This document shows, piece by piece, positions 2,422 to 34,228 of a DNA stretch of 34,228 bases. The stretch's first letter is position 1. The number at the start of each line of letters is the position of its first letter. Location: IMG/VR virus record IMGVR_UViG_3300017989_000277, positions 1 to 34,228 of that record; one strand, written 5' to 3'. This DNA comes from a virus. The notes under the pieces are model-generated. The model was not told where the DNA came from. It did no database searches and saw nothing but the letters and a program-made list of their open reading frames with translations. The position numbers and the translations under genes are program-made.

Positions 2422-3234
2422 ATGGCGTACCGAGGGCGCCTCATCCAAAAGTTCCAGGCGGTCATCGCCCCGGTGAGCCCGTACCGCGCACACAGAGCGA
2501 GCGTCCAGTCGACGACTGGCGAGACGTGGGACCTGGCCGCGGCTGGGCTTCCCGGGACGCTGCTCATCGCAGTAGACGGTGCAGCGGCGCAGACAGTCAC
2601 CCTGACCACTGGCGACTTCGCGGATCCGGCTGCGGCCACGGCGTCCGAGGTGGCGGCGGCGGTGTCGACTGCACTCGCCGGTGGCGAGGCGTGGGCCACG
2701 GCGTCCGCCTACATCGTCATCGCGTCGGAGACAGACGACGACGGCACGATCCAGGTGACCGGCGGTACGCTGAACGCGACGCTACTGTTCCCGACAGTAG
2801 AGGTGTCCGGCGGGTATGACCACGTGATGGGCGGGTATCTGCCGTACGACGACGGTACTGTCGAGGGCGCCGTCCCGCGTCGCGAGGCACCATTGGTGAC
2901 CCTCCCATGCCAGCTGGCGCGAGGAGCGTGGGGACGCCAGGCGTCTGGCGCATCCGCCGGCGGGGACGAGGTGGTCGACTTCACAGTCGCCCTCCATCGG
3001 CCTGACCTCGAGGCACAAAGCCTGTTCGATGCGAACGGAGCCCCGCTGTTCCAGCGCGGCGATCGGCTCGTCAAGATCCTCGAGACGACTGGCGACCTTG
3101 TCGAGGCGTTCCCGGATCCGCCGGGCACGTTCGTCGTTGGTGTCACACGCGGCGGGTACGGCCTAGCGTCGCGCGGAGCAAACCGCAAGTTCAACCTGGT
3201 CCTGTTGCAGTGCGCGCGGAGGGATGTCAGGTGA
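2422..3234 (+). CDS. Structural protein carrying an inserted beta-rich repeat domain (copy A)
   Basis: 270 residues starting 3 nt after the previous stop. Residues about 45-125 form one copy of a domain seen in at least three other genes of this window. Its marks are a 'VDGAAAQTVTLTTGDF' start, a 'TASEVAAAV' helix, and a 'GTIQVTGGTLNATLLF' end. The flanking parts (1-40 and 130-270) read as one separate protein with the insert placed between them; the C-terminal part ends in beta-strands and an R-rich tail. Neighbours are a connector and a tail-completion protein, so a neck or adaptor role is likely. I do not recognise the host fold. Confidence 0.55.
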   Translation: MAYRGRLIQKFQAVIAPVSPYRAHRASVQSTTGETWDLAAAGLPGTLLIAVDGAAAQTVTLTTGDFADPAAATASEVAAAVSTALAGGEAWATASAYIVIASETDDDGTIQVTGGTLNATLLFPTVEVSGGYDHVMGGYLPYDDGTVEGAVPRREAPLVTLPCQLARGAWGRQASGASAGGDEVVDFTVALHRPDLEAQSLFDANGAPLFQRGDRLVKILETTGDLVEAFPDPPGTFVVGVTRGGYGLASRGANRKFNLVLLQCARRDVR

Positions 3235-5007: not shown

Positions 5008-5070
5008 GGCCGTAACAGGGGCGGTGCCGGTCAACGAACCACGCCCGGGATGGGCGGAGGAGGACAGGCG

Positions 5071-7290
5071 ATGCCCGCTGCTGCCAAGATCGTAATTCTC
5101 GAGGAAAACCCGGCCGTTGTGAACATCGTTGCGTTGCCTACCGCCGTTGCGGGATTTGTGGGCATTGCGGAGCGGGGGACGGTCGGCGAGGCGGTCCTGA
5201 CCACGGACTGGGCCGAGTGGGTCGACGAGTACGGTGGGTTCACGAGCACCGCCGACATGACCCTCGGGGCCTACGGCTTCTACAAGGGCAGCGGCAAGAT
5301 CCTCTGGGGCGTGCGGACGGTGCATTACACCGACATCACCGACCCGAGCACCAGCACCGCTGTCAAGGCGAGCCACAATATCCAGAACGCGGGAACCATC
5401 GCCACGGCGGCCGAGGTCTCGAGCGTGGGTGCGCAGAACTTCACCCTCGCTGACGGGCAGACCCTGACCATCTCGATCGATGGCGCAGGTGCGACGACCG
5501 TGACGTTCAACGCCGCGGCGGGCCACCAGGACACGAACGTTGGCGTCGGTTGGCCCGTGGCCAACGAGGACGGCCTGACCCTCATCCTGGAGGTCGACGG
5601 CGGCGCGTCGCAGACCATCACGTTCGGCGGCGTTGGCGGCGTCTACAGCGCGGCGGAGTACGCCTCGCAGATCAACACGCAGATCATCGGTGCCAGCGCA
5701 GACGCGTCATCCGGCGAGGTGGTGATCACGTCCGACTCCAAGGGCACCGGGTCCTCGATCAACGTATCCGGCGGCACCACGAACGTCACGTTCGCCGCAG
5801 CGGTAGCCGGAACCGGGGACTGCGTCGACATCACGGCGGTCACCGGCGCCGAGGCTGCTGCGGTCATCGATGCCGACATGGCGCCGGAGACCAGCACCAC
5901 GGTCAACGGCGACGGAACGCTGACCATCGAGACCACGGATACCGGCTCCACCGCGACCATCCAGGTCACCGGCGGGACCGCGAATACGGCGTTCGCCTTC
6001 GACACCAACCTCCACACCGGTGTCGACGCGGCCGCGGTCAACACCCTCAAGATCGAGGGCAAGACCGAGGGTGCCTATGCGAACAGCATCAAGGCCGTTG
6101 TCGCGGCGGCCTCCTCGGGGCGCGCGGCGGAGTTCGACCTGCTGGTCCAGGTCTCGGGCGTCACCAAGGAGACGTTCACGAGCCTGACGATGGACGACAC
6201 GGATGTCCGGTTCGTCGAGACCATCGTGAACGCAGACGGGACGGGGTCCAACCTCATCACCGCGACCGACCTGGACGCCGGTGGTACGCCGCTTTCAGAC
6301 CGTCCGGTCAACGGCACGCACGGCTTCCTGACTGGCGGCAACGACGGGCTCGCTGCTATCGCGGATACCGACTACGTCGGAGACTCGGCAGGGCCGACTG
6401 GGCTCTACTGCCTCGATACGATCGACAACCTGCGCATCGTCGTCATCCCGAGCAAGGCGTCGGCGACGATCTACAGCGGGATCAAGACCTACTGCACGAC
6501 CTATCGCGAGCGCAGCTGCTTCGGTGTCCTGTCGACCCCGGCGGCTTCGGCTGTCGCGACCACGGCGGCGATGGTCACCTTCATCGAGACCACGACCGCG
6601 ATGGTGAACTCGAGCGAGGAGCTGGCCGTTGCTTGGCCGCGCATCAAGGTCGCCAACCCCGATACCGCCGCCTACGGCGACGGGACGTACATCTACGTCG
6701 ACCCGGCCGCATGGTGGGCGGGGACGATGGCGCGCAACGACGACACGCGGATTGGCGGTGTCTACGAGGCGCCCGCCGGGATCGACTTCGGCGTCATCGA
6801 GGGTTGCCTCGGCCTGGAGGTCGAGGAGGTCAACCGGCTGGGCAAGCGCGAGTTGCTCGCCCGAGTCCTGGTCAACCCCATCCGGTACCACAGCCGGTAC
6901 GGCTACTACGTCGACGGGCACTACACGCTCAAGGAGACCGGGAACTGGCCGTCCATCCCAGAGAGCCGCGGGCGGATGCATATCGCCGAGACGCTGAAGC
7001 TGAACCTCGAGTGGGTGAAGCACCGCAGGAACACGCCGGCCCTCCGTGCCCGTGTCGAGCGGTCTATCCGCTCGTTCCTCGAGCGCGAGCGCATCGACGG
7101 CGCGTTCGCCAGTGATCTGGCGAGCGAGGCCTACTTCGTCGACGTCAGTGCCAAGCTGAACCCGCCGGCCGTCGCCCAGGCGGGCAAGCTGAAGATCAAG
7201 GTGGGCCTCAACTTCGGTCGCCCGATCAACGAGGTCGAGGAAATCATCACCAAGGACACCCGGGCCTACGTCGAGAGCCTGGCCGCCTAA
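5071..7290 (+). CDS. Contractile tail sheath protein with nested inserted domains
   Basis: 739 residues from ATG 5071, chosen over ATG 5050 because GGCGGAGGAGGA ends 6 nt upstream of it. The sheath forms the contractile outer tube. The N-terminal part (1-110) has 'PTAVAGFVGIAERGTVGEAV', typical of sheath domain I, and residues about 540-735 form the conserved C-terminal sheath domain ('WWAGTMARNDDTRIGGVYEA', 'VNRLGKRELLARVLVNPIRY', 'VDVSAKLNPPAVAQAGKLKI'). Residues about 129-313 hold an insertion made of the repeat domain, with a complete copy apparently placed inside another copy. The insert probably faces outwards on the tail. The tube gene follows 13 nt later. Confidence 0.92.
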   Translation: MPAAAKIVILEENPAVVNIVALPTAVAGFVGIAERGTVGEAVLTTDWAEWVDEYGGFTSTADMTLGAYGFYKGSGKILWGVRTVHYTDITDPSTSTAVKASHNIQNAGTIATAAEVSSVGAQNFTLADGQTLTISIDGAGATTVTFNAAAGHQDTNVGVGWPVANEDGLTLILEVDGGASQTITFGGVGGVYSAAEYASQINTQIIGASADASSGEVVITSDSKGTGSSINVSGGTTNVTFAAAVAGTGDCVDITAVTGAEAAAVIDADMAPETSTTVNGDGTLTIETTDTGSTATIQVTGGTANTAFAFDTNLHTGVDAAAVNTLKIEGKTEGAYANSIKAVVAAASSGRAAEFDLLVQVSGVTKETFTSLTMDDTDVRFVETIVNADGTGSNLITATDLDAGGTPLSDRPVNGTHGFLTGGNDGLAAIADTDYVGDSAGPTGLYCLDTIDNLRIVVIPSKASATIYSGIKTYCTTYRERSCFGVLSTPAASAVATTAAMVTFIETTTAMVNSSEELAVAWPRIKVANPDTAAYGDGTYIYVDPAAWWAGTMARNDDTRIGGVYEAPAGIDFGVIEGCLGLEVEEVNRLGKRELLARVLVNPIRYHSRYGYYVDGHYTLKETGNWPSIPESRGRMHIAETLKLNLEWVKHRRNTPALRARVERSIRSFLERERIDGAFASDLASEAYFVDVSAKLNPPAVAQAGKLKIKVGLNFGRPINEVEEIITKDTRAYVESLAA

Positions 7291-15403: not shown

Positions 15404-16945
15404 GTGAGCCTGCCCCAGCCGAACGACTATACTGCCCGCGACTACGACACGCTGAAGGCGCGTCTACGGTCGCTGTGGCTCTCGGTCTTCCCGACCTACC
15501 CCGTGGACGCCAACGGCAACCCGGGCAACATCCTACGCGAGTTGTTCGCGCACGTCGGCGACACGTTCCACTACTACCTCGACGCCATGGCCCGCGAGAC
15601 CCGATGGGGGTCCGCCAGAACGCGCAAGGCCATGATTTCGCTCGGGAAGGTGTACGGATTCGAACTCCAGGGTGCGTCGGCGGCGACCTGCGATGTAACG
15701 CTGTCGAGGTCCGCGCTGGCACCAGGAGAGACGCTATCGATCGCGGCTGGCACGGTGGTGAAGACATCGGCGGTCAACAGCCCGGTACGCGGCGAGACGC
15801 AGGCCGCGCTCGATCTCTCGGATGGGGTGGCATCCTCTGGCGACGTCGCCTGGGAGCACTCCGAGACGAGGTCGGAAACCTTCGCCGCCAACGGACAGCC
15901 GAACCAGGAACTGTATCTCGGGTACGCGCCGTATCTAGACGGGTCCATCGGCATTACCACGGCTGCTGGGACGTGGTCGGAGGTCGACAACCACCTATCC
16001 TCGGACCCGACTGATCTGCATTTCACGATTCGCGTCGACCAGAACGACCACGCATGGGCGCGCTGCGGCGACGGGTCGCTCGGCGCACTGTGGGACGGGT
16101 CTATCGCTGTCGCGTATAAGACCGGCGGAGGTGTCTCGGGCAACGTTGATGCTGGTGCTCTCGTGGAAATCGAGGGGACGTTCGTCGGGAGCCTCGGTAC
16201 TGCCGTGACGCTGACGGCCACCAATGCATCCGGTGCGTCCGGCGGCGAGGCACGCGAGACGGTCAACGCCGCGCGGGACCGCGCGCGGTCGTACATCACG
16301 GCCCTGTCGAGAACGGTCAGCCGCTCGGACTACGAGACGCGTGCACTCCAGGTCTCTGGCGTCGGCCGCGCGCTCATGCTGACGAGCGACGATACTACAG
16401 ACATCGACGAGAACCGCGGTCGCCTGTACATCGTTCCGACCAACGGAGGGACCGCGTCGTCGGCGCTGCTCGCTGCGGTCATGAACGAGATCGACGTCAA
16501 CTACCCGCCGACCATTACGTTCCAGTACGACGTACTCACTGCGGTTTATCAGACGGTCGACGTCGAGGTTCGCGGTGCACTGGCGCAGGGGTACACCTGG
16601 GCGACGGCCCAGACGCTCGTCGACCAGGCCCTCTCCGAGCTGTTCGAGCCGATCGTCAGCCGGACACGGACCGTCGAGGGCGTCCAGCTGACGCTGGGCG
16701 AGGCGAACCCATACGTAGACTTCGGGTACAACTACAAGGACGAGGACGGAGACCCGGCTGGCGAGCTGGCATGGAGCGACGTCTACAACATCGTTCGCGA
16801 CCTTGCGTGCTTCCGCAAGCTGGCGCCGGGTGACGACGGGTTGAAGCTCAACAGCCAATCAGACGACGTACTCCTTTCCCTGCATAGATTCCCGGCCCTC
16901 GGGTCGGTTACGCTCCGCGACGAGACGGGGGCGGCGGTGTCCTGA
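15404..16945 (+). CDS. Baseplate J-like wedge protein
   Basis: 513 residues from GTG 15404, directly after the gp25-like stop. N-terminal 'YTARDYDTLKARLRSLWLSV' and 'NPGNILRELFAHVGDTFHYY' are typical of gpJ/gp6-like wedge proteins. Middle beta segments include 'LAPGETLSIAAGTVVKT'. The region about 290-320 with 'ARDRARSYITALSRTVSRSD' and 'YETRALQVSGVGRALML' is the conserved J family helix-turn. Wedge assembly around the hub is the expected role. Third in a gp25-J-gpI ordering, although lectin genes intervene before gpI. Confidence 0.85.
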   Translation: MSLPQPNDYTARDYDTLKARLRSLWLSVFPTYPVDANGNPGNILRELFAHVGDTFHYYLDAMARETRWGSARTRKAMISLGKVYGFELQGASAATCDVTLSRSALAPGETLSIAAGTVVKTSAVNSPVRGETQAALDLSDGVASSGDVAWEHSETRSETFAANGQPNQELYLGYAPYLDGSIGITTAAGTWSEVDNHLSSDPTDLHFTIRVDQNDHAWARCGDGSLGALWDGSIAVAYKTGGGVSGNVDAGALVEIEGTFVGSLGTAVTLTATNASGASGGEARETVNAARDRARSYITALSRTVSRSDYETRALQVSGVGRALMLTSDDTTDIDENRGRLYIVPTNGGTASSALLAAVMNEIDVNYPPTITFQYDVLTAVYQTVDVEVRGALAQGYTWATAQTLVDQALSELFEPIVSRTRTVEGVQLTLGEANPYVDFGYNYKDEDGDPAGELAWSDVYNIVRDLACFRKLAPGDDGLKLNSQSDDVLLSLHRFPALGSVTLRDETGAAVS

Positions 16946-18903
16946 TGACGGTCACGAATCCCGGGTTCGAGGACCGAGGGGCGGCGGTCGACGGGGGCGA
17001 CACGCTGACGGGGTACGTCGCGAGCGCGGCAGTGTACCCGGTTGCACCCCTCGGCGCCGGGACGACGTTAACGATATCGGTCGACGGTGGGACAGCGCAG
17101 ACGGTCACGTTCGCCGGCGGGGAGACGACCGCCGCCGAAGTAATGCACGCGATCAATGGACAACTCTCCGGAGGGTACTCGACGAGCGGATCCGTCCCGA
17201 TAGTGTGGACCGCAACCGCTGGCCCGACGGGGTCGATCCAGGTGACCGGCGGGACGGCAAACGCGACGCTCTTGTTTTCGACGACGGCAGTCGAAGGGGA
17301 TGACGGCGGGTTCGAGGCGGGTGTGCTCGCGCACCTCGTCGTCCCGGCAGGATTGACCGCGACGCTCGTTGCGGGCGCGAGGACGGGCGGCGGAGGGTCG
17401 ACGGTACTCGACCTCACAAAGACGGCCGGTGCGGGAGCGCTTGCCGTGCGCTTGCCGTTCCCGCAGATGGCAGGCGGGCGCGTGTACCGGATCACCGGGT
17501 GGGCGCGCGGGCTGGACGGCCTCGCCGCCGAGGTGGTCGACGGCGTGACGACAATCTACCAGGGGACGGCGGCGTCGACAGAGTGGGAGGCTTTCGACGT
17601 GACGTTCGTCGCGGCGGCCGGGCAACTCTTGTTTGGCGTCGAGGCCGGGGCGGCGGCCAACCAGCACGTCCAGTTTGACGACGTGGCGATATCGTCCGTG
17701 CACCGTCTTGGGGAACCGGGCCCGTGGAAGACGTCGGCGTTCTCAGGACAGGGGGGGGCGGCCTTGTTCAACGACCCAGAGATGTGGTCTCTTGGGTTCG
17801 ACGACAGCGGGTCCGGGCACCTGATCGCGAATGAAGCGTCCGGCGTCGAACAGTTCAAGGCCGGTTGGGACGACGTCCATCTATACCTCGCGGCGCTGTC
17901 CTCGCCGACGTCGTACCAGTTCACCTCGTCGTCTCCAAGCTACGCGAGCGTCCTCGAGGGATTCGAGGCGTGGAACGGCGCAAACTGGCTCGACTCGCCG
18001 ACGGTAACCGACCCGAGCGCGACGACCCCACCCACGCTGTGGCACGGCGCGTGGTGGAAGCAGTATCCGGCGTCGGAACTGGCGCTTGACGCAGAGGGGT
18101 TCGACGAGGGCTGGACCACGTGGGGCGCGGCGTTCCGCGCCCCACGCCAGCTGAACGGCGTAGTCCGTGGCGACTATATCGACCCGTCGACGGCCCCTGG
18201 GTCGTTTACGTACGAGATCGGGGACAACAACAAGAGACTGCGACTGCTCGTGGCGTCTGGGGTGTCACTCCAGGTCATCGAGTTGGTCCTCACCCCGGGC
18301 ACGTACGGGCATGCAGCACTCGAGGCACACCTGAACGCGGTGCTCGCGGCTGCCCTCGGAGGGTCGGCTGCGCCGTGGGCGTTCGACCTGGACGCCGAGG
18401 GAACCGACGTGCGTATGTCGTTCGGCTGGGACGGAGTTACGGACACCAGCGGCGTCGTCAACGCGGCTGTGTTTCTCGATGTCGACAACGACTACTACCG
18501 CAAAGACCTGCGTTTTCATGCCGGGTTCTACAACCTTGGCACGCGTGCCGAGATGAACGAAGTCGTCTACCCGGGCGACGCTGCGCCTCCGATTCCTGCG
18601 GGATGGACGGCGGACGACCGGCTGTTGATTGACCTGTGGACGGGGGTTGTCTTCTCGAGCGACACGGACCCTCTCGCGGCGACGATCGAGGTATTCGAGG
18701 GCAGCGGCGCGGGGATGCTTTTCGATTCGGCCGCGACGGCTGGTATCTATTACGAGCGGTTTTACATCGACATTTGGTTCGGCGCGGCGTGGAAGTCCGC
18801 GTACGGGCCAGGAGACCTGACAGACTTCGCGTGGGGCGGCGGGTTCGGTGGACCCTTCGAAGACTTCGTCGACACGCGGTGGCCGAGCGAGTTGTACCCA
18901 TAG
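16945..18903 (+). CDS. Carbohydrate-binding-module protein with inserted repeat domain (copy C)
   Basis: 652 residues, TGATG overlap with the J gene. The first residues, 'VTNPGFED', are the usual opening of a CBM4/9-type module; residues about 36-115 are a copy of the repeat domain ('TLTISVDGGTAQTVTFAGGE', ending GSIQVTGGTANATLLF). The CBM-like strands then resume (GRVYRITGWARGLDGLAAEV, 'TEWEAFDVTF', 'HVQFDDVAISSV'). From about residue 255 on a further unknown beta-rich part has many Trp and Tyr. It likely sits on the baseplate and binds a surface sugar. The insertion inside the CBM is seen directly; sugar binding is inferred. Confidence 0.6.
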   Translation: MTVTNPGFEDRGAAVDGGDTLTGYVASAAVYPVAPLGAGTTLTISVDGGTAQTVTFAGGETTAAEVMHAINGQLSGGYSTSGSVPIVWTATAGPTGSIQVTGGTANATLLFSTTAVEGDDGGFEAGVLAHLVVPAGLTATLVAGARTGGGGSTVLDLTKTAGAGALAVRLPFPQMAGGRVYRITGWARGLDGLAAEVVDGVTTIYQGTAASTEWEAFDVTFVAAAGQLLFGVEAGAAANQHVQFDDVAISSVHRLGEPGPWKTSAFSGQGGAALFNDPEMWSLGFDDSGSGHLIANEASGVEQFKAGWDDVHLYLAALSSPTSYQFTSSSPSYASVLEGFEAWNGANWLDSPTVTDPSATTPPTLWHGAWWKQYPASELALDAEGFDEGWTTWGAAFRAPRQLNGVVRGDYIDPSTAPGSFTYEIGDNNKRLRLLVASGVSLQVIELVLTPGTYGHAALEAHLNAVLAAALGGSAAPWAFDLDAEGTDVRMSFGWDGVTDTSGVVNAAVFLDVDNDYYRKDLRFHAGFYNLGTRAEMNEVVYPGDAAPPIPAGWTADDRLLIDLWTGVVFSSDTDPLAATIEVFEGSGAGMLFDSAATAGIYYERFYIDIWFGAAWKSAYGPGDLTDFAWGGGFGGPFEDFVDTRWPSELYP

Positions 18904-21723: not shown

Positions 21724-23820
21724 ATGGCGATTACGGTCGACCAGCTCCTGGCTACCCTCTTGGTCGACGACGCCGCGACCGTCGCGGTCACGGGACAGTT
21801 TGCCGTCATCCTCCGCACCCCGGAGCCCGACGAGGACGACATTGCTGTCGATGCCCCGGTGTCCCTGCGCGTCGTCGATCTCGACGGCAACCCGGCGGTG
21901 GGCTGGGCTCACAGCGTGGTTGTCTACGCCGACGTGGGCGCGGGACCGGTGCCCGTCTACGTGGGCGGGGCGTTCACTGGGGACTGGAACCAGCCGGGCT
22001 CGAGCACGGCGTCACACGGCGGCGCGGACCCCTACGCCTTTTTCGATCTGACGGCTGCGCACGGGACCGACTTCGCGTCCCGGGCGACAGTCAAGATCAC
22101 AGTGGTCGTCAACGCAAACGCCCTCATCGAGGTCTACTCGTTCCGCGTGGTAGACGTCGAGCGCCCGTCTCTGCTATCGGCGGAGGCGGTCGGCCAGATG
22201 ACGGTCCGTGTCCGGTTTGACGACGAGATGGGGGCCACTGCCCTCGACCCCGGCAACTACACGATCCAGACCGAGAACGTAGATCCGGACGTCGGTGTCT
22301 CGCTGACTGTCGAGTCCGTGGCGCTCGCCGATACGGGGTCGGGATACGGCCACCTGCCATACGGGCACCACCCGTACGGGCACGGGTACTGGGACTACGA
22401 TCTCACGGTCAACTGGGAGATGACGCCGAACTGCCCGTATCGCGTTATCTGCGACGACTCCGTCGTGACCGATGCGTCTGGCAACCTACTCATCCGCCCG
22501 GCCGAGGCGGTCTTTTCTGGATACGCTCCGGATACGCCTGCGACCCGGCGCTGGGATCTGTACGAGATGCTCCCCGAGGTGCTACAGGCGGCGGACACCA
22601 CGCAGGATCTGCGGCGCATCATCAACGTATTCCAGGAAACGACCGACCTGCTACTGTACGACATCGACCACTCACTCGACCAGGTCGATCCGGACACGGC
22701 GACTGACGAACAGATCGCCCTGATGCTGTGGGACTTGGGCAACCCGTGGGACGTCGACGAGTACGACCTGACAGCTGCGCAACAGCGGCTACTGACGACG
22801 CTGCTCGTCCCCATCTATCGCCTGCGCGGGACGGCCGAGGGCATCGAGTCGGCCGTCTTCCTGCTGACCGGCATCACCGTGTCCGTCGTCGACTACCTGT
22901 CCGACCAGTGGCAGCTGGGATACGACGCGCTGGGCACCGGGCAGGTGGCCTACCTGACGGCGGGCAGCGCGGAGACCTACGACTTCACCGGGGCCCCGCT
23001 GACGCTCACCGTGGAGGTCGACGGAGGCGGCGCCCAGACGGTCACATTCCAGCCGTCGGACTTCTTGTCGCCCACCGCGGGGACGGCGGAGGAGGTGGCC
23101 GCGCGTCTTACTGCCGATCTGACGGACGCCGAGGGTTACGTCCATCGCGGCGGCGTGCCGGCCGAGGTGACGTGCACAGGGACCGAGCCGTTCGCGGCGA
23201 CGGCGGGAGACGACCTCCAGCTGTCTGTCAACGGCGCGGCGGCTCAGACGTTGACCCTGTCGGCGTCCGACTACGCGGCGTCCGGCTCGGTTACTGCTGA
23301 CGAAATCGCCGACTGGCTGAACGACCACCTCGTCGGCGCTTCGGCGTCGGCGTCCGGTGGCAGTATAACAATCGCGACCGACCTGACCGGTGCGACCGCG
23401 ACGATCCAGGTGACCGGCGGGACCCTCGTTGGCATCATGACCTGGCCCGGCGCCGCCCAGGCGGGAGCCGATACGCCGCGGGCCGGCGTATTCTCTACGA
23501 CGCCCGGGCCGGACGGGCGCATCGAGGTCACCGGGGGCACCGCGAATGCCGTTCTCGACTTCGGGACAGAGCCCTCCGTTGCCATCGGCGGGTGCAAGTT
23601 GGGGCCGTCGGCGTCTCGCGCCCGTTATTGCTTCGATCTGGAGACGAGTGCTACCCTGACCACAGAGGAGGAGCGCTTGGTCCGCCAAATCGCCGAGGAA
23701 CTGAAACCCGCCCATACCCATCTGATTTCTATCCGTCCGCCTGCGGCCGTTACGGTCCACCCGGACGGCTGGCACCTGGGATGGAGCAAGCTCGGCACCA
23801 CGACGGTGCTGGGCCCGTAG
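21724..23820 (+). CDS. gpI-like tail protein split by inserted repeat domains (copy D)
   Basis: 698 residues. Residues about 1-270 are N-terminal beta domains ending in a His/Tyr/Gly stretch (YGHLPYGHHPYGHGY, about 207-221). Residues about 276-390 are the gpI family core: 'LYEMLPEVLQAADTTQDLRR', 'DIDHSLDQVDPDTATDEQIA', 'PIYRLRGTAEGIESAVFLLT'. The end of that family, with LTTEEERLVRQIAEELKPAH, lies at about 643-663. Between them, residues about 424-617 are repeat-domain material, apparently a full copy placed inside another. gpI joins the wedge to the fibres. Confidence 0.75.
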   Translation: MAITVDQLLATLLVDDAATVAVTGQFAVILRTPEPDEDDIAVDAPVSLRVVDLDGNPAVGWAHSVVVYADVGAGPVPVYVGGAFTGDWNQPGSSTASHGGADPYAFFDLTAAHGTDFASRATVKITVVVNANALIEVYSFRVVDVERPSLLSAEAVGQMTVRVRFDDEMGATALDPGNYTIQTENVDPDVGVSLTVESVALADTGSGYGHLPYGHHPYGHGYWDYDLTVNWEMTPNCPYRVICDDSVVTDASGNLLIRPAEAVFSGYAPDTPATRRWDLYEMLPEVLQAADTTQDLRRIINVFQETTDLLLYDIDHSLDQVDPDTATDEQIALMLWDLGNPWDVDEYDLTAAQQRLLTTLLVPIYRLRGTAEGIESAVFLLTGITVSVVDYLSDQWQLGYDALGTGQVAYLTAGSAETYDFTGAPLTLTVEVDGGGAQTVTFQPSDFLSPTAGTAEEVAARLTADLTDAEGYVHRGGVPAEVTCTGTEPFAATAGDDLQLSVNGAAAQTLTLSASDYAASGSVTADEIADWLNDHLVGASASASGGSITIATDLTGATATIQVTGGTLVGIMTWPGAAQAGADTPRAGVFSTTPGPDGRIEVTGGTANAVLDFGTEPSVAIGGCKLGPSASRARYCFDLETSATLTTEEERLVRQIAEELKPAHTHLISIRPPAAVTVHPDGWHLGWSKLGTTTVLGP

Positions 23821-28157: not shown

Positions 28158-28745
28158 ATGCTTCGAGTTTCTGCCACCAAGAACCTGGACGCCGCCGAGG
28201 CAACCGCACTCACCACGCACCGTACGGCAGACGGCACCAGCCATGCCAACGTCGTGCTGAACGACACACACCGCGCGTCCAACGGGACCGACCACGCGAA
28301 CGTCGTCACCAATGACTCCCACGTCGCTGGCGACGGGTCTGACCACGCCGACGTCGCGACCAACACGGCCGCTGTCACCGGCGGCAAGGGTCCGTTCGTC
28401 GACACCGAGGAGGTCGCTGGCGCGCTCGCCGGAGGCCCGACCACGATCAACGCGTTCATCGCGCCGGCTGCCGGGACGATCACCGCGGTCTACAGCAAGC
28501 TCGGCACCGCGTGCGCGGCGGGCCAGACCGTGGACATCGACGTGCAGATCGGCGGCGTATCCGCCCTCACGGCGGCGACGCAGCACGACAACACCGACGG
28601 CACCAACGCGGTTGCCGCCTCGATCGATGGCACCGCCGACGACTTTGTCGCGGGTGACCTGATCACCGTCATCCATACCGAGGCCAACGGCGGCGGCCCG
28701 ACCGCGGCAGACCTGACCGTCACCGTCGGGTGTCTGTTCACCTAG
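28158..28745 (+). CDS. His-rich repeat fibre protein with shared C-terminal module
   Basis: 195 residues. Residues 20-70 are three 17-residue repeats of the form T-H-x-x-x-x-G-x-x-H-A-x-V-x-x-N-D. Such Asp/His repeats are found in phage fibres and may bind metal. The last 110 residues ('GPTTINAFIAPAAGTITAVY', 'CAAGQTVDIDVQIGGVSALT', 'EANGGGPTAADLTVTV') are a clear relative of the end of the 23830 fibre, with near-identical DNA at the end of the module. Likely a small fibre or head decoration trimer. It is the last gene before a terminator. Confidence 0.6.
   Translation: MLRVSATKNLDAAEATALTTHRTADGTSHANVVLNDTHRASNGTDHANVVTNDSHVAGDGSDHADVATNTAAVTGGKGPFVDTEEVAGALAGGPTTINAFIAPAAGTITAVYSKLGTACAAGQTVDIDVQIGGVSALTAATQHDNTDGTNAVAASIDGTADDFVAGDLITVIHTEANGGGPTAADLTVTVGCLFT
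28215..28367 (+). repeat. Three 51-bp in-frame coding repeats
   Basis: Three tandem 51-bp units inside the 28158 gene, each coding 17 residues ending ANVVLND, ANVVTND and ADVATNT. DNA identity is moderate, so the array has aged or is under codon diversification. Confidence 0.65.
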
Positions 28746-28817
28746 CCCTACCTCGCTGACCATCGCGGCGCGCCTGTCGGCGCTCCGGCTGCGCTGGTCG
28801 GCTACGACCTATCCCAC

Positions 28818-28841
28818 CGAGCCCCGTTAGCGCGGGGCTCG
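28818..28841. terminator. Intrinsic-terminator-like hairpin at the end of the late block
   Basis: A 9-bp perfect stem CGAGCCCCG / CGGGGCTCG with a 6-nt loop, in the 233 bp gap between the last virion gene and the first early-type gene. It is followed by TCTATCACATGTT, only weakly T-rich, so termination strength is uncertain. The rest of the gap (28746-28817) has no gene that I can support. Confidence 0.6.
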
Positions 28842-28913
28842 TCTATCACATGTTACCCGACGCTGAGCCCAGACAGACGTGCCTGTTGGGTATGAAAAAA
28901 CAGCGCAAAAGTG

Positions 28914-28942
28914 TTGACAGCGCCCGTGGGGTGCGCTATCTT
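28914..28942 (+). promoter_or_regulatory. Strong sigma-70 type promoter (early promoter 1)
   Basis: TTGACA (28914-28919), 17 bp, TATCTT (28937-28942). An A-tract (28895-28900) and CAAAA (28906-28910) lie just upstream and may act as an UP element. Transcription would start near 28949. Confidence 0.8.
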
Positions 28943-28978
28943 AGCACCATGAACGGGCAACACAACGAGGAGGACAGC

Positions 28979-29380
28979 ATGGGCAACGAAAACGGTTTCT
29001 GGTCCGACGCAGACGTCATCTCTACCTACTCCAGGGCGCAGGCCATCGAGGACGGCGTCCTGGTCGAGATGCCCACGGACCTCGCGCGCGAGGCCGGCTT
29101 TCGCTACCCGATCGCACTGACTGCCGACGCGTGGGAGCAGACGGTGTCGCTGTCGAAGCGCGACGAGGAGATGGGGCAGGACGTCACGGGCCGCCTCTGG
29201 GACATCATGACGATGATGCGCTTCACCATGCGCTCTCGCCGTGGCAAGGGGCCTAGCGACCGCGTTCGCTTCCAGGTCATCGTCATGCACGGGCGCCGGC
29301 GCCGCCTGCACAACCTGGAGGCCATCTGCGGCCCCGGTGACGACGCCGAGCCTGTCATCACGATCGACGTCGCCGCGTAG
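28979..29380 (+). CDS. DUF6573 family protein
   Basis: 133 residues. It follows the family closely: 'DVISTYSRAQAIEDGVLVEM', 'LAREAGFRYPIALTADAWEQ', 'TGRLWDIMTMMRF', and the ending 'ICGPGDDAEPVITI'. The family is widespread on phages and plasmids; its function is unknown. Start 28979 is chosen for the CGAGGAGGA site ending 4 nt before it. An in-frame ATG at 28949 lies about at the predicted transcript start and would be leaderless. First gene of the early block. Confidence 0.85.
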   Translation: MGNENGFWSDADVISTYSRAQAIEDGVLVEMPTDLAREAGFRYPIALTADAWEQTVSLSKRDEEMGQDVTGRLWDIMTMMRFTMRSRRGKGPSDRVRFQVIVMHGRRRRLHNLEAICGPGDDAEPVITIDVAA

Positions 29381-29386
29381 GCGGAC

Positions 29387-29427
29387 GCCCCCGCCCGGGG
29401 ACGCCGGTTCGACTCCGGCACGGGGGC
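29387..29427 (+). ncRNA. tRNA-like acceptor/T-arm minihelix (possible tRNA relic or structured RNA)
   Basis: GCCGG-TTCGACT-CCGGC (29403-29419) is a canonical T-arm: 5-bp stem, 7-nt loop with TTCGA. Around it, GCCCCCG (29387-29393) pairs perfectly with CGGGGGC (29421-29427), a 7-bp stem like an acceptor. There is no D-arm or anticodon arm and no CCA end (CCGA follows). Lies between the DUF6573 stop and the next gene's leader. May be a coincidence of GC-rich pairing, a tRNA remnant or a stable mRNA processing element. Confidence 0.35.
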
Positions 29428-29457
29428 CCGAGGGTACACAACACCGAGGAGGTCGAG

Positions 29458-29790
29458 ATGCGCATGTGGATGGTCCCACCCGAGACGATGTGCCGCCAGC
29501 ACCTCGTCGGCGAGCACGGCGAGCTGCACAAGTTCCTCCGCGACTGGGAGCGACACTACAGCATCGCCGGGCGCGTCGACGGCAACCAGATCGAGCCGCG
29601 GTCCTACAAGGCGCGTCACGACGCACTGGCCGCCGAGATGCTGGCGCGCGGGTACAACCACCAGAGCCCGCTCGAGCAGCCCGACTGGTCGTACCTGCCG
29701 GACGCTCATCGCAAGGCCTCCGTCGACGTCACTACCGCTGATCGACTCCTGCGAAAACGGTGTCCGGAGTGCGCGGCGAGAAAAAAGTAA
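29458..29790 (+). CDS. Pyrimidine-dimer glycosylase/endonuclease V-like protein
   Basis: 110 residues. The N-terminus (MRMWMVPPETMCRQHLVGEH, then GELHKF) matches the phage relatives of T4 endonuclease V; E22 aligns with the catalytic Glu23. The body holds the conserved 'RHDALAAEMLARGYNHQSPL' segment of these phage proteins, and a C-terminal CPECAARKK could bind zinc. Thr2, the catalytic amine donor of T4 endonuclease V, has no equivalent, so DNA repair activity is uncertain. It may be translated from early promoter 1. Confidence 0.6.
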   Translation: MRMWMVPPETMCRQHLVGEHGELHKFLRDWERHYSIAGRVDGNQIEPRSYKARHDALAAEMLARGYNHQSPLEQPDWSYLPDAHRKASVDVTTADRLLRKRCPECAARKK

Positions 29791-29807
29791 TCGGCCACCT
29801 TTTTCTA

Positions 29808-29835
29808 TTGACAACCCCAGCGGCCGCGTTATTAT
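29808..29835 (+). promoter_or_regulatory. Strong sigma-70 type promoter (early promoter 2)
   Basis: TTGACA (29808-29813), 16 bp, TATTAT (29830-29835). It is preceded by an A-tract (29781-29786) and a T-tract (29800-29804), which also pair into a weak AT hairpin around the previous stop codon. Transcription start near 29842. Confidence 0.75.
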
Positions 29836-29904
29836 ATAGGCATGACACGGACACACAACACGGACGCAGAAAACAGCCGCGAGAGCGGCAGAAAGGAGAG
29901 CATC

Positions 29905-30123
29905 ATGTATGCTCTGGCTTCCGGCCTTGTTGGTTTCCGTTCTTCGAGCCTTCGGGTTCGCGTACTTGAGCACCGTGACGGGTGCGTGTGGGTCCGCACG
30001 GCGGACTTGGCCGATGCCGGGACCGCGCTGGTCCTCGACGAGTCGAAGGTTGACTTCGACTATTTCACCGGCGACGCGGAGGCGCCGCTCGTCCACAGGC
30101 GCGGGCTGGTCGCGCTCGGCTAG
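29905..30123 (+). CDS. Small unknown early protein
   Basis: 72 residues from ATG 29905, with AAAGGAG 6 nt before. An in-frame ATG at 29842 would fall at the predicted transcription start and lacks a ribosome site. The protein has short beta-strands ('LRVRVLEHRDGCVWVRTADL') and an acidic middle. No family recognised. It is the only gene directly behind early promoter 2 before a hairpin at 30137-30162. Confidence 0.65.
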   Translation: MYALASGLVGFRSSSLRVRVLEHRDGCVWVRTADLADAGTALVLDESKVDFDYFTGDAEAPLVHRRGLVALG

Positions 30124-30136
30124 TCCGCCCCTGTCT

Positions 30137-30162
30137 CGCCCCGTGTCATCGGACGCGGGGCG
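30137..30162. other. Intergenic hairpin
   Basis: A 9-bp stem (CGCCCCGTG / CGCGGGGCG, one G-U pair) with an 8-nt loop between two small early genes. No T-run follows. It might partly terminate or protect the transcript. Confidence 0.45.
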
Positions 30163-30199
30163 GCGCGGCTGACGGACTGGGCAACACGAGGAGGGTGCG

Positions 30200-30640
30200 A
30201 TGGATAGTGGCAACAAGGACTTCGTTGATACGTGCTACGACTGCGCCTGTGACAGGCCGTATCCGAATAGGGGTGATGACTTCTGCGAGGCGTGCCGCCG
30301 GTATCACACGCTACCCGAGCAGGCATCGCACGAAGCTGAGCGTGATTCGCTAGACGGGGTGCCCGCTGCTTTTGCGGAAGCCGAAAAGCCTACCCGAACA
30401 AGTCGATCCACGCGGGCGGCATTCTCGAGGTCGAAGCAGGATACGATGGCGGACAGCGAGGAGATACAGGTCGTGGTCAGCACGGGCGGGTTGCGGACAA
30501 TCATCGATGCGCTGAAGAAGATGTGTCGCGACGCGGACATCGTCGTCGACATCTCGCGGTCGGTTGGGGCGCGGCGCGCGGCGCGCGTACAGTCCGATGA
30601 GTGTCGCGCGCTCATCGATGACTTGGAGTACCACCTCTAG
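30200..30640 (+). CDS. Small protein with N-terminal Cys4 zinc-binding motif
   Basis: 146 residues, with the shared CGAGGAGGG leader. C12, C15, C29 and C32 make a CxxC...CxxC zinc-ribbon pattern. A basic linker (TRTSRSTRAAFSRSK) leads to a C-terminal part of about 65 residues with strand-helix alternation ('EEIQVVVSTGGLRTIIDALK'). Probably a DNA- or protein-binding early protein. The two halves differ in style and the second begins with an in-frame ATG (30446), so an internal product is possible. Confidence 0.6.
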   Translation: MDSGNKDFVDTCYDCACDRPYPNRGDDFCEACRRYHTLPEQASHEAERDSLDGVPAAFAEAEKPTRTSRSTRAAFSRSKQDTMADSEEIQVVVSTGGLRTIIDALKKMCRDADIVVDISRSVGARRAARVQSDECRALIDDLEYHL

Positions 30641-30659
30641 CTGCGGCTGGAGAAAAATG

Positions 30660-30687
30660 TTGACACGGGATACCGGGCGCGTATAAT
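30660..30687 (+). promoter_or_regulatory. Strong sigma-70 type promoter (early promoter 3)
   Basis: TTGACA (30660-30665), 16 bp, perfect TATAAT (30682-30687), preceded by GAAAAAT. Transcription start near 30694, giving a leader of about 24 nt that holds GCAACGAGGAGG. Confidence 0.85.
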
Positions 30688-30717
30688 AGCGCACAGGGTT
30701 GCAACGAGGAGGATCAC

Positions 30718-30972
30718 ATGCTGTGCAAGACATTCGCGGAGTGGTGGGGCAGCGACGAGGCGCCGAAGGTCGTCACGGTCCGCATGGGGTACGACGCAGG
30801 CGGAGACTACTGCGAGGCGGTCAACCTGTGCGACGGGAAGCGCATCCGGTTCGATAGCCCCGTGGCGGCCGGTATGGCGATGGAGAGGCGCGGCTTGCGT
30901 GGCACCGGTGCGCACCTGGCGGGGTCTCCGAGCACTGGTAGCCGTCGGCGCGATCGGCGTCACGGTCGTTAG
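30718..30972 (+). CDS. Small unknown early protein behind promoter 3
   Basis: 84 residues; GAGGAGG ends 5 nt before the ATG. The first 60 residues ('FAEWWGSDEAPKVVTVRMGY', 'DYCEAVNLCDGKRIRFDSPV') look like a real small alpha/beta domain. The last 25 are Arg/Ser/Gly-rich and of low quality, and another frame there codes a hydrophobic peptide (30899-30982), so the end may overlap a tiny gene. Function unknown. Confidence 0.6.
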   Translation: MLCKTFAEWWGSDEAPKVVTVRMGYDAGGDYCEAVNLCDGKRIRFDSPVAAGMAMERRGLRGTGAHLAGSPSTGSRRRDRRHGR

Positions 30973-31017
30973 AGCGGGGTAGGTTCCGATACCTGGGCAA
31001 CAACGAGGAGGGTCATC

Positions 31018-31185
31018 ATGGAAGAAAGCTACGAGGTTGTCGGCGTGACGCCGAGGTGGGTGAGCGAGTACGACGCGAGCTGGTGCAAGTGCCCGGTTTG
31101 CGGGGCGGCCGTGTTCGACGACGACGCGGGGTCGCGGTGCCCCGGGTGCGGGTGCGACATCCAGGAGTGCGGGGGCTGGCGGTGA
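31018..31185 (+). CDS. Tiny zinc-ribbon protein
   Basis: 55 residues, with the GGGCAACAACGAGGAGGG leader 5 nt before ATG. Cys pairs CPVCG (C25, C28) and CPGCG (C41, C44) form a zinc ribbon, with more Cys at 23, 46 and 51. The stop is overlapped by the GTG start of the response regulator (GTGA at 31182-31185), so the two are translated together. Such tiny ribbons often bind nucleic acids or polymerase; the role here is unknown. Confidence 0.65.
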   Translation: MEESYEVVGVTPRWVSEYDASWCKCPVCGAAVFDDDAGSRCPGCGCDIQECGGWR

Positions 31186-31577
31186 GGCCGGTCGTCATCG
31201 TCGTCGAGGACCAGGACATGGTCCGCAAGGTCATGGTGCGGGTCATCGAGTCGCTCGGGTTCACGGTGCTGGAGTTTCCCGACGCGTTCGAGGCGGAGGA
31301 TTTCTTCCGTGACGATTGCGAGCAGGTGTCGACGATGACGACGGTTCACGCCATCGTCTCGGACTGCGACTGCCCAGAGCCATACGCCGGTCTGGATGTG
31401 CTCGAGGAAGCACAGATCAGCATCCCGGATGCTCGCCGCATCCTGATGTCCGGCCGCACCTGCACAGCTCGCATCGCAGATGCTATCGAGGATGGCGTGG
31501 TACAGACGTTCCTCGAAAAGCCGTTCGCGCGTCTCACCCTGGCGCTGGCGCTCGGGGAGCCAGGAGAGGAGAGATAA
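31182..31577 (+). CDS. Stand-alone response regulator receiver (CheY-like) protein
   Basis: 131 residues from GTG 31182. It is a full receiver domain and nothing else. The acidic pair E9/D10 sits in 'VVIVVEDQD', D61 in 'AIVSDCDCPEPYAGLDVLEE' is the phospho-acceptor, S90 in 'RRILMSGR' is the switch Ser, and K113 in 'TFLEKPF' is the conserved Lys. All catalytic positions are therefore present, and it should accept phosphate from a histidine kinase. No kinase or output domain is encoded next to it. A host kinase or chemotaxis/biofilm pathway is the likely partner. Rare in phages. Confidence 0.88.
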   Translation: MRPVVIVVEDQDMVRKVMVRVIESLGFTVLEFPDAFEAEDFFRDDCEQVSTMTTVHAIVSDCDCPEPYAGLDVLEEAQISIPDARRILMSGRTCTARIADAIEDGVVQTFLEKPFARLTLALALGEPGEER

Positions 31578-31581
31578 GGGT

Positions 31582-31821
31582 ATGGGGATACTGACTATCA
31601 CGGCAGAGGCGCCCGGCGGGGCAGACATCAGGGACTGTTCGCGAGACGCCGTTCGCCTGGCCGGGCTCATGGGCGTCGGTGTGCGGTTCTCGTTCAACGG
31701 GGTGTGCTGCATGGCGCGGCCCGGCGACGACCCGGCGCTGCTCGCCGATGACTACATGCGCGCGCTCCACTCGCAAAGCGATATCAAGATCGCGTATGCC
31801 TACAGGGGAGATGACGCGTGA
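31582..31821 (+). CDS. Small conserved-type phage protein of unknown function
   Basis: 79 residues, 4 nt after the receiver gene. The pattern 'APGGADIRDCSRDAVRLAGL' then 'GVRFSFNGVCCMARPGDDPA' is like small phage proteins that I recall only as hypothetical. The C-terminus ends in a helix ('LADDYMRALHSQSD'). Its stop overlaps the HTH gene start. Transcribed with the receiver gene. Confidence 0.65.
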   Translation: MGILTITAEAPGGADIRDCSRDAVRLAGLMGVGVRFSFNGVCCMARPGDDPALLADDYMRALHSQSDIKIAYAYRGDDA

Positions 31822-32075
31822 TGGCGACGGCTGGCGACACGGCCACCATCCGGGCGCGGGTCCGGCTCGCCCTTCTGGAGACTGGGCGCACGCAGACGGA
31901 CCTCGCGCGGGAGATGGGGATCTCGAGACAGCGGGTCTCGGCAGCCCTGAGGCAGCATGCCAGGCTCTCGGTCGAGACTGTGCGACAGTTCGCCCTTGCG
32001 CTCGGGACATGTGCCGGGGAACTGTCCCGCCCGCTGACCGAGGAAGAGTGGGCGCGTCTGGGGCGCGCGAGCTAG
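31818..32075 (+). CDS. Cro/C1-type helix-turn-helix protein
   Basis: 85 residues from GTG 31818 (ATG 31821 also possible; AGGGGAG spacing favours GTG). Residues about 12-70 have the XRE fold: 'TIRARVRLALLETGRTQTDL', 'AREMGISRQRVSAALRQHAR' (scaffold and recognition helices), and 'LSVETVRQFALALGT'. Likely a DNA-binding regulator of early genes. No kinase or output is fused. It is in the same operon as the receiver protein. Confidence 0.85.
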   Translation: MMATAGDTATIRARVRLALLETGRTQTDLAREMGISRQRVSAALRQHARLSVETVRQFALALGTCAGELSRPLTEEEWARLGRAS

Positions 32076-32088
32076 AGGAGACGACGCG

Positions 32089-32340
32089 ATGACGAAGCCG
32101 ATTCCAATCCAGCTGACAGACGAGCAGAACGATGCAATGATACACCTCGCGCAGCAGGTGAACGAAGACTTTGCCGTTGACGAGCCCGGCATGGTGCTCG
32201 CGCAGGTCTTCCCCGAGGATCCGGACGACCCCGTCTCATCTCCGAAGCGACGTACGATGCAGGTATTCTATCTGCCGTACGAAGATGCGCGCGTCCTCCA
32301 GCGCGTCGTCCATCTGATGCTCCAGCACGGCGAGGGCTGA
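32089..32340 (+). CDS. Small acidic unknown protein
   Basis: 83 residues with AGAGGAG upstream. Two helices flank an acidic, Pro-rich loop ('VFPEDPDDPVSSP'). The C-terminus ('PYEDARVLQRVVHLMLQHGE') is amphipathic. No family recognised. TGATG overlap with the nuclease start suggests a partner of the recombination module. Confidence 0.55.
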   Translation: MTKPIPIQLTDEQNDAMIHLAQQVNEDFAVDEPGMVLAQVFPEDPDDPVSSPKRRTMQVFYLPYEDARVLQRVVHLMLQHGEG

Positions 32341-33194
32341 TGACGCTCGAGATGGTCAGCGCGTCCCAGGTAGGGACGTTCTCGCGGTGTCCTTACCAGT
32401 GGTATCGGATCTACCCCTGCGGCGAGCGCCTGCCTCCTGGTGTGGCCGCGCCAACAGGAAGCGGGGTTCACAAGGGCGCGGAGGTCAACCACAAACAGAA
32501 GGTAACGACCGGGGTCGATCTTCCTGTCGGCGACGTGCTGGACGCGGCGAGAGATGAGTACGATCGCCGCATCCGTCGGGGAGTATTCCTCACCCGCGAG
32601 GACCAGACGCGGAAGGCCAAGGTTCTCGGCGAGGGGCTCGACCGCACGGTACGGATGGCCCGCGTCTACCACTCCGAGATCGCCCCGCTGATCCAGCCGG
32701 CGACCGTCGAGGAACACCTGGTCATCGAGCCCGACGATACCGACGGCGTTGCGATCCAGGGGTACATCGACTGCACCACGCCGGACGGCACGGTCATCGA
32801 CCTGAAGACTGCGAGCAAGGCGTGGGCCGCTGGGCGCGTGGAAAAGGAGGCCCAGCCGACCGTCTACTCGAAGCTGTACGAGGCGCAGCACGGCCGGCCG
32901 CCGGAGCGGTTTCGGTTCGAGGTGGTGGTCGGCACGAAGACCAAGGAGTACCGTCAGGGCGACAAGTTCCTGACGACCAAGCGGAACGAGCACGACTGGG
33001 CGGCGTTCGCGGCGCGCGTGAGGACGATGGCGCGGATGGTCAAGGCGGGCATCTTCCCGCCGGCCGACCCGGGGTCGTGGATCTGCTCGCCGCAGCACTG
33101 CGGCTTCTTTACGACCTGCCCGTACCAGTCGCGGCGGGTCATCGCACAGGTGCTCGCTCCGAGGGACGAGCAAGGAGGGAACGATGGCCGATAG
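32340..33194 (+). CDS. PD-(D/E)XK nuclease with Fe-S cluster motif (Cas4/AddB-like)
   Basis: 284 residues. The nuclease motifs are visible: H44 in 'GSGVHKGAEVNHK', D144 in 'AIQGYIDCTT', D154 and K156 in 'TVIDLKTASK', and Q172 in 'EAQPTVYSKLYEAQH'. Four Cys at 17, 249, 254 and 260 ('FSRCPYQWY', 'WICSPQHCGFFTTCPY') are spaced as the 4Fe-4S cluster of Cas4/AddB-type exonucleases. It probably resects DNA ends. The next gene, overlapping its stop by 11 nt, is the likely annealing partner. Confidence 0.85.
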   Translation: MTLEMVSASQVGTFSRCPYQWYRIYPCGERLPPGVAAPTGSGVHKGAEVNHKQKVTTGVDLPVGDVLDAARDEYDRRIRRGVFLTREDQTRKAKVLGEGLDRTVRMARVYHSEIAPLIQPATVEEHLVIEPDDTDGVAIQGYIDCTTPDGTVIDLKTASKAWAAGRVEKEAQPTVYSKLYEAQHGRPPERFRFEVVVGTKTKEYRQGDKFLTTKRNEHDWAAFAARVRTMARMVKAGIFPPADPGSWICSPQHCGFFTTCPYQSRRVIAQVLAPRDEQGGNDGR

Positions 33195-34228
33195 CTACGA
33201 CGACGTCCCGGTGACGGACGAAACCACCCTGGCCCAGGCGCCGCAGCAGGCGATGGGCCCGACAGCGCCGCAGCCGTTCGGCGGGATCCAACTCGACGCC
33301 AACGCCGCCCGCGGGGTCGCCGAGGTTCTCGGCGCCATCTCTGTCGCTCGGAGCGTCGGCCGGGACGAGGTCCAGGTGTGGAGCGAGGTCCGCCGGATGA
33401 CCAAGCGCAAGCGGCTCGCCGAGCGGGGGCTCTACGCCTACTATCGAAAAAAGCAACTTATTGAGGGTCCGAGTGTGGACCTCATCGAGCAGGTCGCCAG
33501 GGCCTACGGTCACATCCGTGCTGGGTGGCGCGAGCTGGAGCGCAACGACAAGGAGGCGAAGGTCGAGTGCTACGCGTGGGACATGTACACCAACACACAC
33601 GCGACACGACAGATCGTCGTCCCGTTCCGGCGGGACAAGCGTGGCGCGGTGGGCGGCGTCGAGGTGACCGAGCAGCGTGACCGCTACGAGCTGATGGCCA
33701 ACAACGCAGCGCGGCGGATGCGCGCCTGCATCGAGCAGCTGCTCCCCGCGGACCTCGTCGACGAGGCGGTCGACGGGGTAAAGCGCACCCTGGAGAATGG
33801 CGACGGGTTGCCGTTCAAGGACCGTGTACGCGAGATGCTCCTCGCGTTCGAGGAGCACTACGGCGTCCGCCAGCAGGACCTCGAGGCGCGACTCGGTCAC
33901 ACCATCGACGCGCTGGTCCCCGCGCAGCTCGTCACACTCCGGTCGGCCTTCAACGCCATGAAGGCCGGGGCGAACCCGCAGGAGATGTTCCCGCGAGCCG
34001 CGGTCGCCCGTCAGGAGGCCACAGGAGGCGATTCTACGCCCTCCAAGGAGCCGACCCCCAAGGGGCTGACCGAGGAGGAGCCGCCAGAGGACGCCCCGGT
34101 GTCGCCAGCCTCGCAGCCATCAGAGGACGACGCCTCCGAGCCGGCGCAGAGCAAGGGCCCCGCAGATGATCCCCAGGACGCTCCGCCGAGCGATACCGTA
34201 ACGGACGGTTGCGGTATTGACGACGGCG
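33184..34228 (+). CDS. Putative DNA-annealing/recombination protein (3' end outside window)
   Basis: 348 residues to the window edge, with AAGGAGGG before ATG 33184. Conserved segments are 'RDEVQVWSEVRRMTKRKRLA', 'GLYAYYRKKQLIEGPSVDLI', 'EQVARAYGHIRAGWRELERN', 'AYAWDMYTNTHATRQIVVPF'-type (here CYAWDMYTNTHATRQIVVPF), and 'RDRYELMANNAARRMRACIE'. These occur in a phage family found beside exonucleases. The annealing (RecT-like) role is my inference from context. The last 70 residues are Pro/Glu/Asp-rich and disordered. Confidence 0.6.
   Translation, partial: MADSYDDVPVTDETTLAQAPQQAMGPTAPQPFGGIQLDANAARGVAEVLGAISVARSVGRDEVQVWSEVRRMTKRKRLAERGLYAYYRKKQLIEGPSVDLIEQVARAYGHIRAGWRELERNDKEAKVECYAWDMYTNTHATRQIVVPFRRDKRGAVGGVEVTEQRDRYELMANNAARRMRACIEQLLPADLVDEAVDGVKRTLENGDGLPFKDRVREMLLAFEEHYGVRQQDLEARLGHTIDALVPAQLVTLRSAFNAMKAGANPQEMFPRAAVARQEATGGDSTPSKEPTPKGLTEEEPPEDAPVSPASQPSEDDASEPAQSKGPADDPQDAPPSDTVTDGCGIDDG

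Follow-up and report, generated by a model that had tools for sequence, protein, structure and literature searches.

The window, a 34,228-base virus contig from IMG/VR, carries a gene for a stand-alone receiver (single-domain response regulator, SDRR) of 131 amino acids at 31182..31577 on the plus strand. The call is based on Pfam, the active-site residues, coding statistics, and an AlphaFold2 (AF2) model. As for its role, a probability of roughly 40% was placed on the protein acting as an SDRR that competes with host receivers for kinases and changes host signaling during infection.

The receiver gene, its active site and its fold

According to the ORF list and its translation, the receiver gene runs from a GTG start to a TAA stop. 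The codon statistics gave log-odds of 0.43 per codon in this frame compared with at most 0.03 in the other five, the GC content by codon position was 0.68/0.39/0.80, and the codon usage resembled that of the phage genes. As these phage-like statistics were found in its frame, the ORF was regarded as a gene and not as a chance ORF. Moreover, the GTG start overlaps the TGA stop of the preceding small ORF (GTGA) and the receiver domain begins directly at the ORF start, and thus the coordinates are sensible. The ORF lies exactly at the boundaries given in the first-pass annotation. The ORF encodes the receiver only, without a fused output or kinase domain, and the following gene is separate.

Response_reg (PF00072) was the sole Pfam family matched by the protein, covering residues 5–121 with an E-value of 5.6e-10 and a score of 39.8 bits (cut-off, 30.2). 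Receivers are defined by five catalytic residues, and a protein that has lost any one of them is termed a pseudo-receiver (PMC12632262). The five residues, E9/D10, D61, S90, and K113, were all found at the positions named from the sequence beforehand. Since all five are present, the protein is not a pseudo-receiver and, by its sequence, is a receiver under the published definition. The supporting positions of phosphorylatable receivers, namely, D+4 Pro, T+1 Ala/Gly, and K-3 Tyr/Phe, were also kept as P65, G91, and F110, respectively. With the PF00072 score above the cut-off and the five residues kept, the earlier description of the protein as a complete receiver that stands alone and keeps its phosphorylation site intact was upheld. 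However, the residue at D+2 is Asp, differing from the other receivers aligned here, and the beta3-alpha3 loop is one residue longer, between D61 and the usual Gly. Because of these two features, the kinetics of the protein may be unusual.

In the case of the fold, AF2 with an 11-row alignment produced a model with a pLDDT of 89.5 and a pTM of 0.85. The model showed the complete (βα)5 order with five strands and five main helices, and an additional short helix at residues 46–52 between alpha2 and beta3. This alpha2-beta3 insertion is not confined to the phage protein, as some receivers in other alignments also have extra residues there. The alignment was made up of receivers, which biased the model towards the receiver fold, and the single-sequence model was poor and unusable (pLDDT 43.4). 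Since modeling without the alignment failed, the model agrees with a receiver but is not independent proof of one. The top Foldseek match to the AF2 model was PDB 3hv2 (E 4.2e-9), VIA-align gave Z scores of 16–18 against receivers, and the best fold matches were all receivers.

The same fold and aspartates also occur in cRec-type cyclic-phosphate-processing enzymes, which are receiver-like phosphoesterases found in phages including jumbo phages (PMC7824862, PMC9503650). That the phage protein is such an enzyme was judged very improbable, as Response_reg was the only Pfam family returned and the protein retains the Ser, Lys, and K-3 Phe found in true receivers. On comparing the protein with BFVD, true receivers came first (E 5e-7), whereas the cRec-named proteins ranked 31 and 39 (E 2e-3 to 7e-3). 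No NAD/ADP-ribose or RNA-ligase gene was recognized among the scanned neighbors, several of which are uncharacterized, the contig being a fragment. The enzyme reading was thus disfavored, as the Pfam result and the BFVD ranks placed the protein closer to two-component receivers than to cRec.

Genomic context of the receiver

The source record is incomplete. Its structural genes encode a head-tail adaptor/connector, a neck protein, a sheath protein (746 aa), a tube protein, a tape-measure protein, and a baseplate J protein, and because of these genes the contig points to a fragment of a contractile-tail phage. With these structural genes on an IMG/VR virus contig and genes for an exonuclease and a RecT-like protein shortly downstream of the receiver, the designation of the receiver as phage-encoded was confirmed. 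A domain of approximately 80 aa (TLTISVDGGxAQTVTF...IQVTGGTANATLLF) is repeated in four different structural genes of the phage, at 2422-3234, 5050-7290, 16945-18903, and 21724-23820, with the sheath protein and ORF 21724-23820 each containing two to three copies.

From 28.9 kb on, small genes lie behind three strong sigma-70-like promoters, which occur within 1.8 kb at 28914-28942, 29808-29835, and 30660-30687 and match 10, 11, and 12 of the 12 consensus positions, respectively. Four sigma-70-like sites were counted in 28600-34228, compared with 0.6 expected in shuffles. The first gene past the tail region encodes a DUF6573 protein (28979-29380; PF20213, E 4.3e-20). At 29458-29790, a small protein with a match to pyrimidine dimer DNA glycosylase (PF03013, E 1.9e-12) is encoded, and this glycosylase-like DNA-repair gene sits among the small genes carrying the three strong promoters.

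The promoter-like sequence TTGACA-16-TATAAT at 30660..30687 (plus strand, as are the genes of the operon) is, by its 12/12 consensus match only, the probable promoter of the receiver operon. The first ORF of the operon (30718..30972, 84 aa) lies in a frame favored by coding statistics, and no match to it was found in Pfam or PHROG. It is followed by a Cys-rich ORF of 55 aa (31018..31185), called from sequence and coding statistics, with a zinc-ribbon-like CPVC...CPGCGC pattern; on this Cys pattern, its zinc binding is putative. Downstream of the receiver, a 79-aa ORF (31582..31821), the C-terminal part of ORF 31480-31821, begins with the ATG at 31582, 4 nt past the receiver stop. Its stop is overlapped by the start of a gene for a Cro/C1-type helix-turn-helix (HTH) protein of 85 aa (31818..32075; PF01381, E 2.3e-8; phrog_2328, E 1.1e-9). 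The remaining genes encode an 83-aa product (32089..32340; ORF list and coding statistics), a PD-(D/E)XK exonuclease (32340..33194; PF12705, E 1.7e-19; phrog_69, E 1.5e-20), and a RecT-like recombination protein truncated by the contig end (33184..34227; phrog_3657, E 1.8e-68), the last of which also matches proteins annotated as RecT-like ssDNA-binding.

The genes from 30718 to the contig end are closely packed on one strand, and from the Cys-rich ORF onward the stops and starts overlap or nearly touch. No plus-strand terminator-like hairpin was found between the promoter and 33089. Read from this gene layout, the receiver operon would be expressed early by the host polymerase. No tRNA or Rfam family was found in the window. 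Moreover, no match to HATPase_c or Hpt was obtained anywhere on the 34,228-base record; the missing part of the genome may encode a kinase.

Sequence relatives and proposed function

Close relatives of the receiver were not found in IMG/VR (pattern search, tblastn, and profile scan), in INPHARED (tblastn, E 0.01), or among the plasmids and the bacterial genome set, the pattern-based scans being able to detect near relatives only. Three plasmid matches were approximately 30% identical; of these, one is annotated as a hybrid kinase and another as a response regulator. The nearest bacterial receivers were 24–34% identical, apart from a partial match with 40% identity across 40 residues, and belonged to EAL-receiver, GGDEF-EAL-receiver, and receiver-HD proteins, hybrid histidine kinases, and one OmpR-type regulator. 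It is unlikely, though a little less so than the enzyme reading, that the gene was recently captured from a host and benefits the phage little or not at all. The lack of a relative in the phage and virus records searched at close range would fit such a capture, but the codon usage suits phage genes, the start/stop junctions are tightly packed in the operon, none of the functional residues is lost, and the bacterial genes found were at best 24–40% identical, with no near-identical one among them.

Generic receiver motifs in IMG/VR led to four contigs, mostly with multidomain kinases or c-di-GMP proteins, which may be host DNA. In one record, IMGVR_UViG_3300031088_000008 (416,714 bases), three or more genes encode receiver domains, including a hybrid histidine kinase gene; the record is either bacterial DNA filed as viral or a giant phage of an unusual kind. 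The DctD and CckA receiver probes matched 165 and 32 INPHARED records, respectively, counts that are unusable as a frequency because the records are mostly unannotated or bacterial-looking. A search for relatives of the phage with its sheath, RecT-like, and exonuclease proteins recovered a single contig, of 8,461 bases, whose sheath is identical. Using the sheath family phrog_15814, the best match among 596 sampled genomes of two bacterial phyla was partial and reached 143 bits, compared with 443 for the window protein; thus, no host was assigned.

In the NCBIfam ranking, NosR (NosR-type c-di-GMP regulators) scored 41.2 bits, CckA (hybrid kinases) 39.0, FixJ 29.2, NtrC 26.9, and CheY 12.1, all far below their own family cut-offs. 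The comparison showed no special tie to chemotaxis CheY. It suggests descent from the broad group to which the nearest bacterial receivers belong and says nothing on function. The CckA receiver being among the best profile matches also bears on phosphorylation-independent inhibition, in which the receiver fold would dock on a host kinase and block it. The cellular SDRR Osp does so by binding the transmitter domain of CckA and stopping its kinase activity (PMC9430884). However, pure blocking would not need the phosphorylation residues, which are all retained, and the CckA match, far below the family cut-off, reflects the receiver domain only. Inhibition of this type was therefore rated as doubtful, with a low probability.

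The preferred reading is that of a decoy receiver for host kinases. The PF00072 match, the intact active site, the receiver-like AF2 model, the absence of an output domain, and the phage operon context all argue for an SDRR. As regards the decoy, C-terminal receivers of hybrid kinases were among the nearest bacterial matches, and the cellular SDRRs MrrA and LovR take, shuttle, or drain phosphate (PMC5964349). In the proposed mechanism, the receiver would be made early from the host sigma-70 promoter together with the recombination genes, and D61 would be phosphorylated by host histidine kinases or histidine phosphotransfer proteins. The phosphate would come from the host, as no kinase or Hpt domain was found on the fragment. 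The protein would compete with the host's own receivers for those kinases and thereby drain or redirect phosphate, and one or a few host signaling pathways would be altered in infection.

The intact active site would suit a phospho-dependent adaptor of the CheY/DivK kind just as well. Under that possible but tentative reading, a host kinase phosphorylates the receiver, which in turn binds one particular protein of the host or the phage. The K-3 Phe and the T Ser required for Y-T coupling are retained, and stand-alone receivers often act through partner binding (PMC5964349). The partner is possibly a product of the same packed operon, such as the HTH protein encoded two genes downstream, in which case the infection would react to the host state. 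Against the adaptor, there is no conserved neighborhood to compare, as no close relative was found in the IMG/VR or INPHARED searches.

Diversion of host signaling by the phage receiver, whether as a decoy or as a phospho-adaptor, is plausible but hypothetical, and the motility, envelope stress, and biofilm pathways proposed earlier as its targets have nothing more than plausibility in their favor. It is more speculative, though conceivable, that an early-expressed phage decoy receiver would take the phosphate of a hybrid-kinase or c-di-GMP pathway of the host and so rewire that pathway. If so, the phosphate-taking decoy would be a phage take-over route distinct from that of PIT4, a known phage protein that binds kinases (PMC10714779). 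If host kinases phosphorylate the receiver, it would be a case of a virus plugging directly into bacterial two-component signaling, and the intact Asp allows a clean single-residue test. No experimental test of any lone phage receiver was found in the literature searched, though several have been annotated.

Comparison with known receivers

The best sequence and fold matches were the receivers of HD/EAL c-di-GMP proteins (PDB 3hv2 and 2rjn; 25–30% identity), which have the block PDxxRIxxSGxT...DAIxxGxxxxFLxKP in common with the phage receiver. However, these receivers belong to multidomain proteins that also carry enzymatic outputs, whereas an output domain is absent from the phage protein. 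The second-best class, with at most 34% identity, comprised the C-terminal receivers of hybrid histidine kinases (CckA, PDB 6tne), which are attached to a kinase, unlike the phage receiver. The receiver-only architecture is that of the cellular proteins CheY, DivK, Spo0F, MrrA, and Osp. Compared with these SDRRs, the phage protein is phage-borne and has the extra alpha2-beta3 helix, the longer beta3-alpha3 loop, and the D+2 Asp, and its identity to E. coli CheY was 22%.

A signaling gene also adjoins recombination genes in Stenotrophomonas phage Bhz63. In vB_SmaS_Bhz63, a response regulator adjoins a histidine-kinase-superfamily ORF at 37520-39066, beside NinB and a resolvase, and the pair is a possible phage-borne complete two-component system, judging from its genes. 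The PhoP-like regulator of Bhz63 has 239 aa, longer than a lone receiver, and lies next to the kinase-superfamily ORF, whereas only a receiver is present here.

The first-pass annotation held that phages rarely carry such proteins, which is fair in that they are uncommon. However, the gene is not unprecedented, because receivers of Alteromonas phages V22 (MN877442), A5 (OP481051), PB15 (KX982260), and XX1924 (MN592896), the records compared here, and several further phage receivers in BFVD are on record. V22 ORF30 (gp30) is CheY-like and was given as a putative signaling auxiliary gene (PMC7289586), A5 gp11 is a stand-alone CheY-like protein (PMC10579305), and those of PB15 and XX1924 are 'response regulator' receivers. 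In its record, V22 ORF30 carries the annotation 'hybrid sensor histidine kinase - response regulator', but its length is just 149 aa and its sequence aligns as a receiver. The four Alteromonas proteins are likewise phage-encoded single receiver domains (125–149 aa) with the DD, D, S, and K residues kept, but they are only 12–15% identical to the phage receiver described here over aligned columns. They are encoded in or near a tail-fiber/host-recognition module, with tail-fiber or surface-protein genes, whereas the present gene shares an operon with recombination genes, downstream of a sigma-70-type promoter. As it stands, the phage receiver is, on sequence grounds, one more divergent addition to the stand-alone phage receivers already recorded, placed in a recombination-gene operon instead of near a tail-fiber module.
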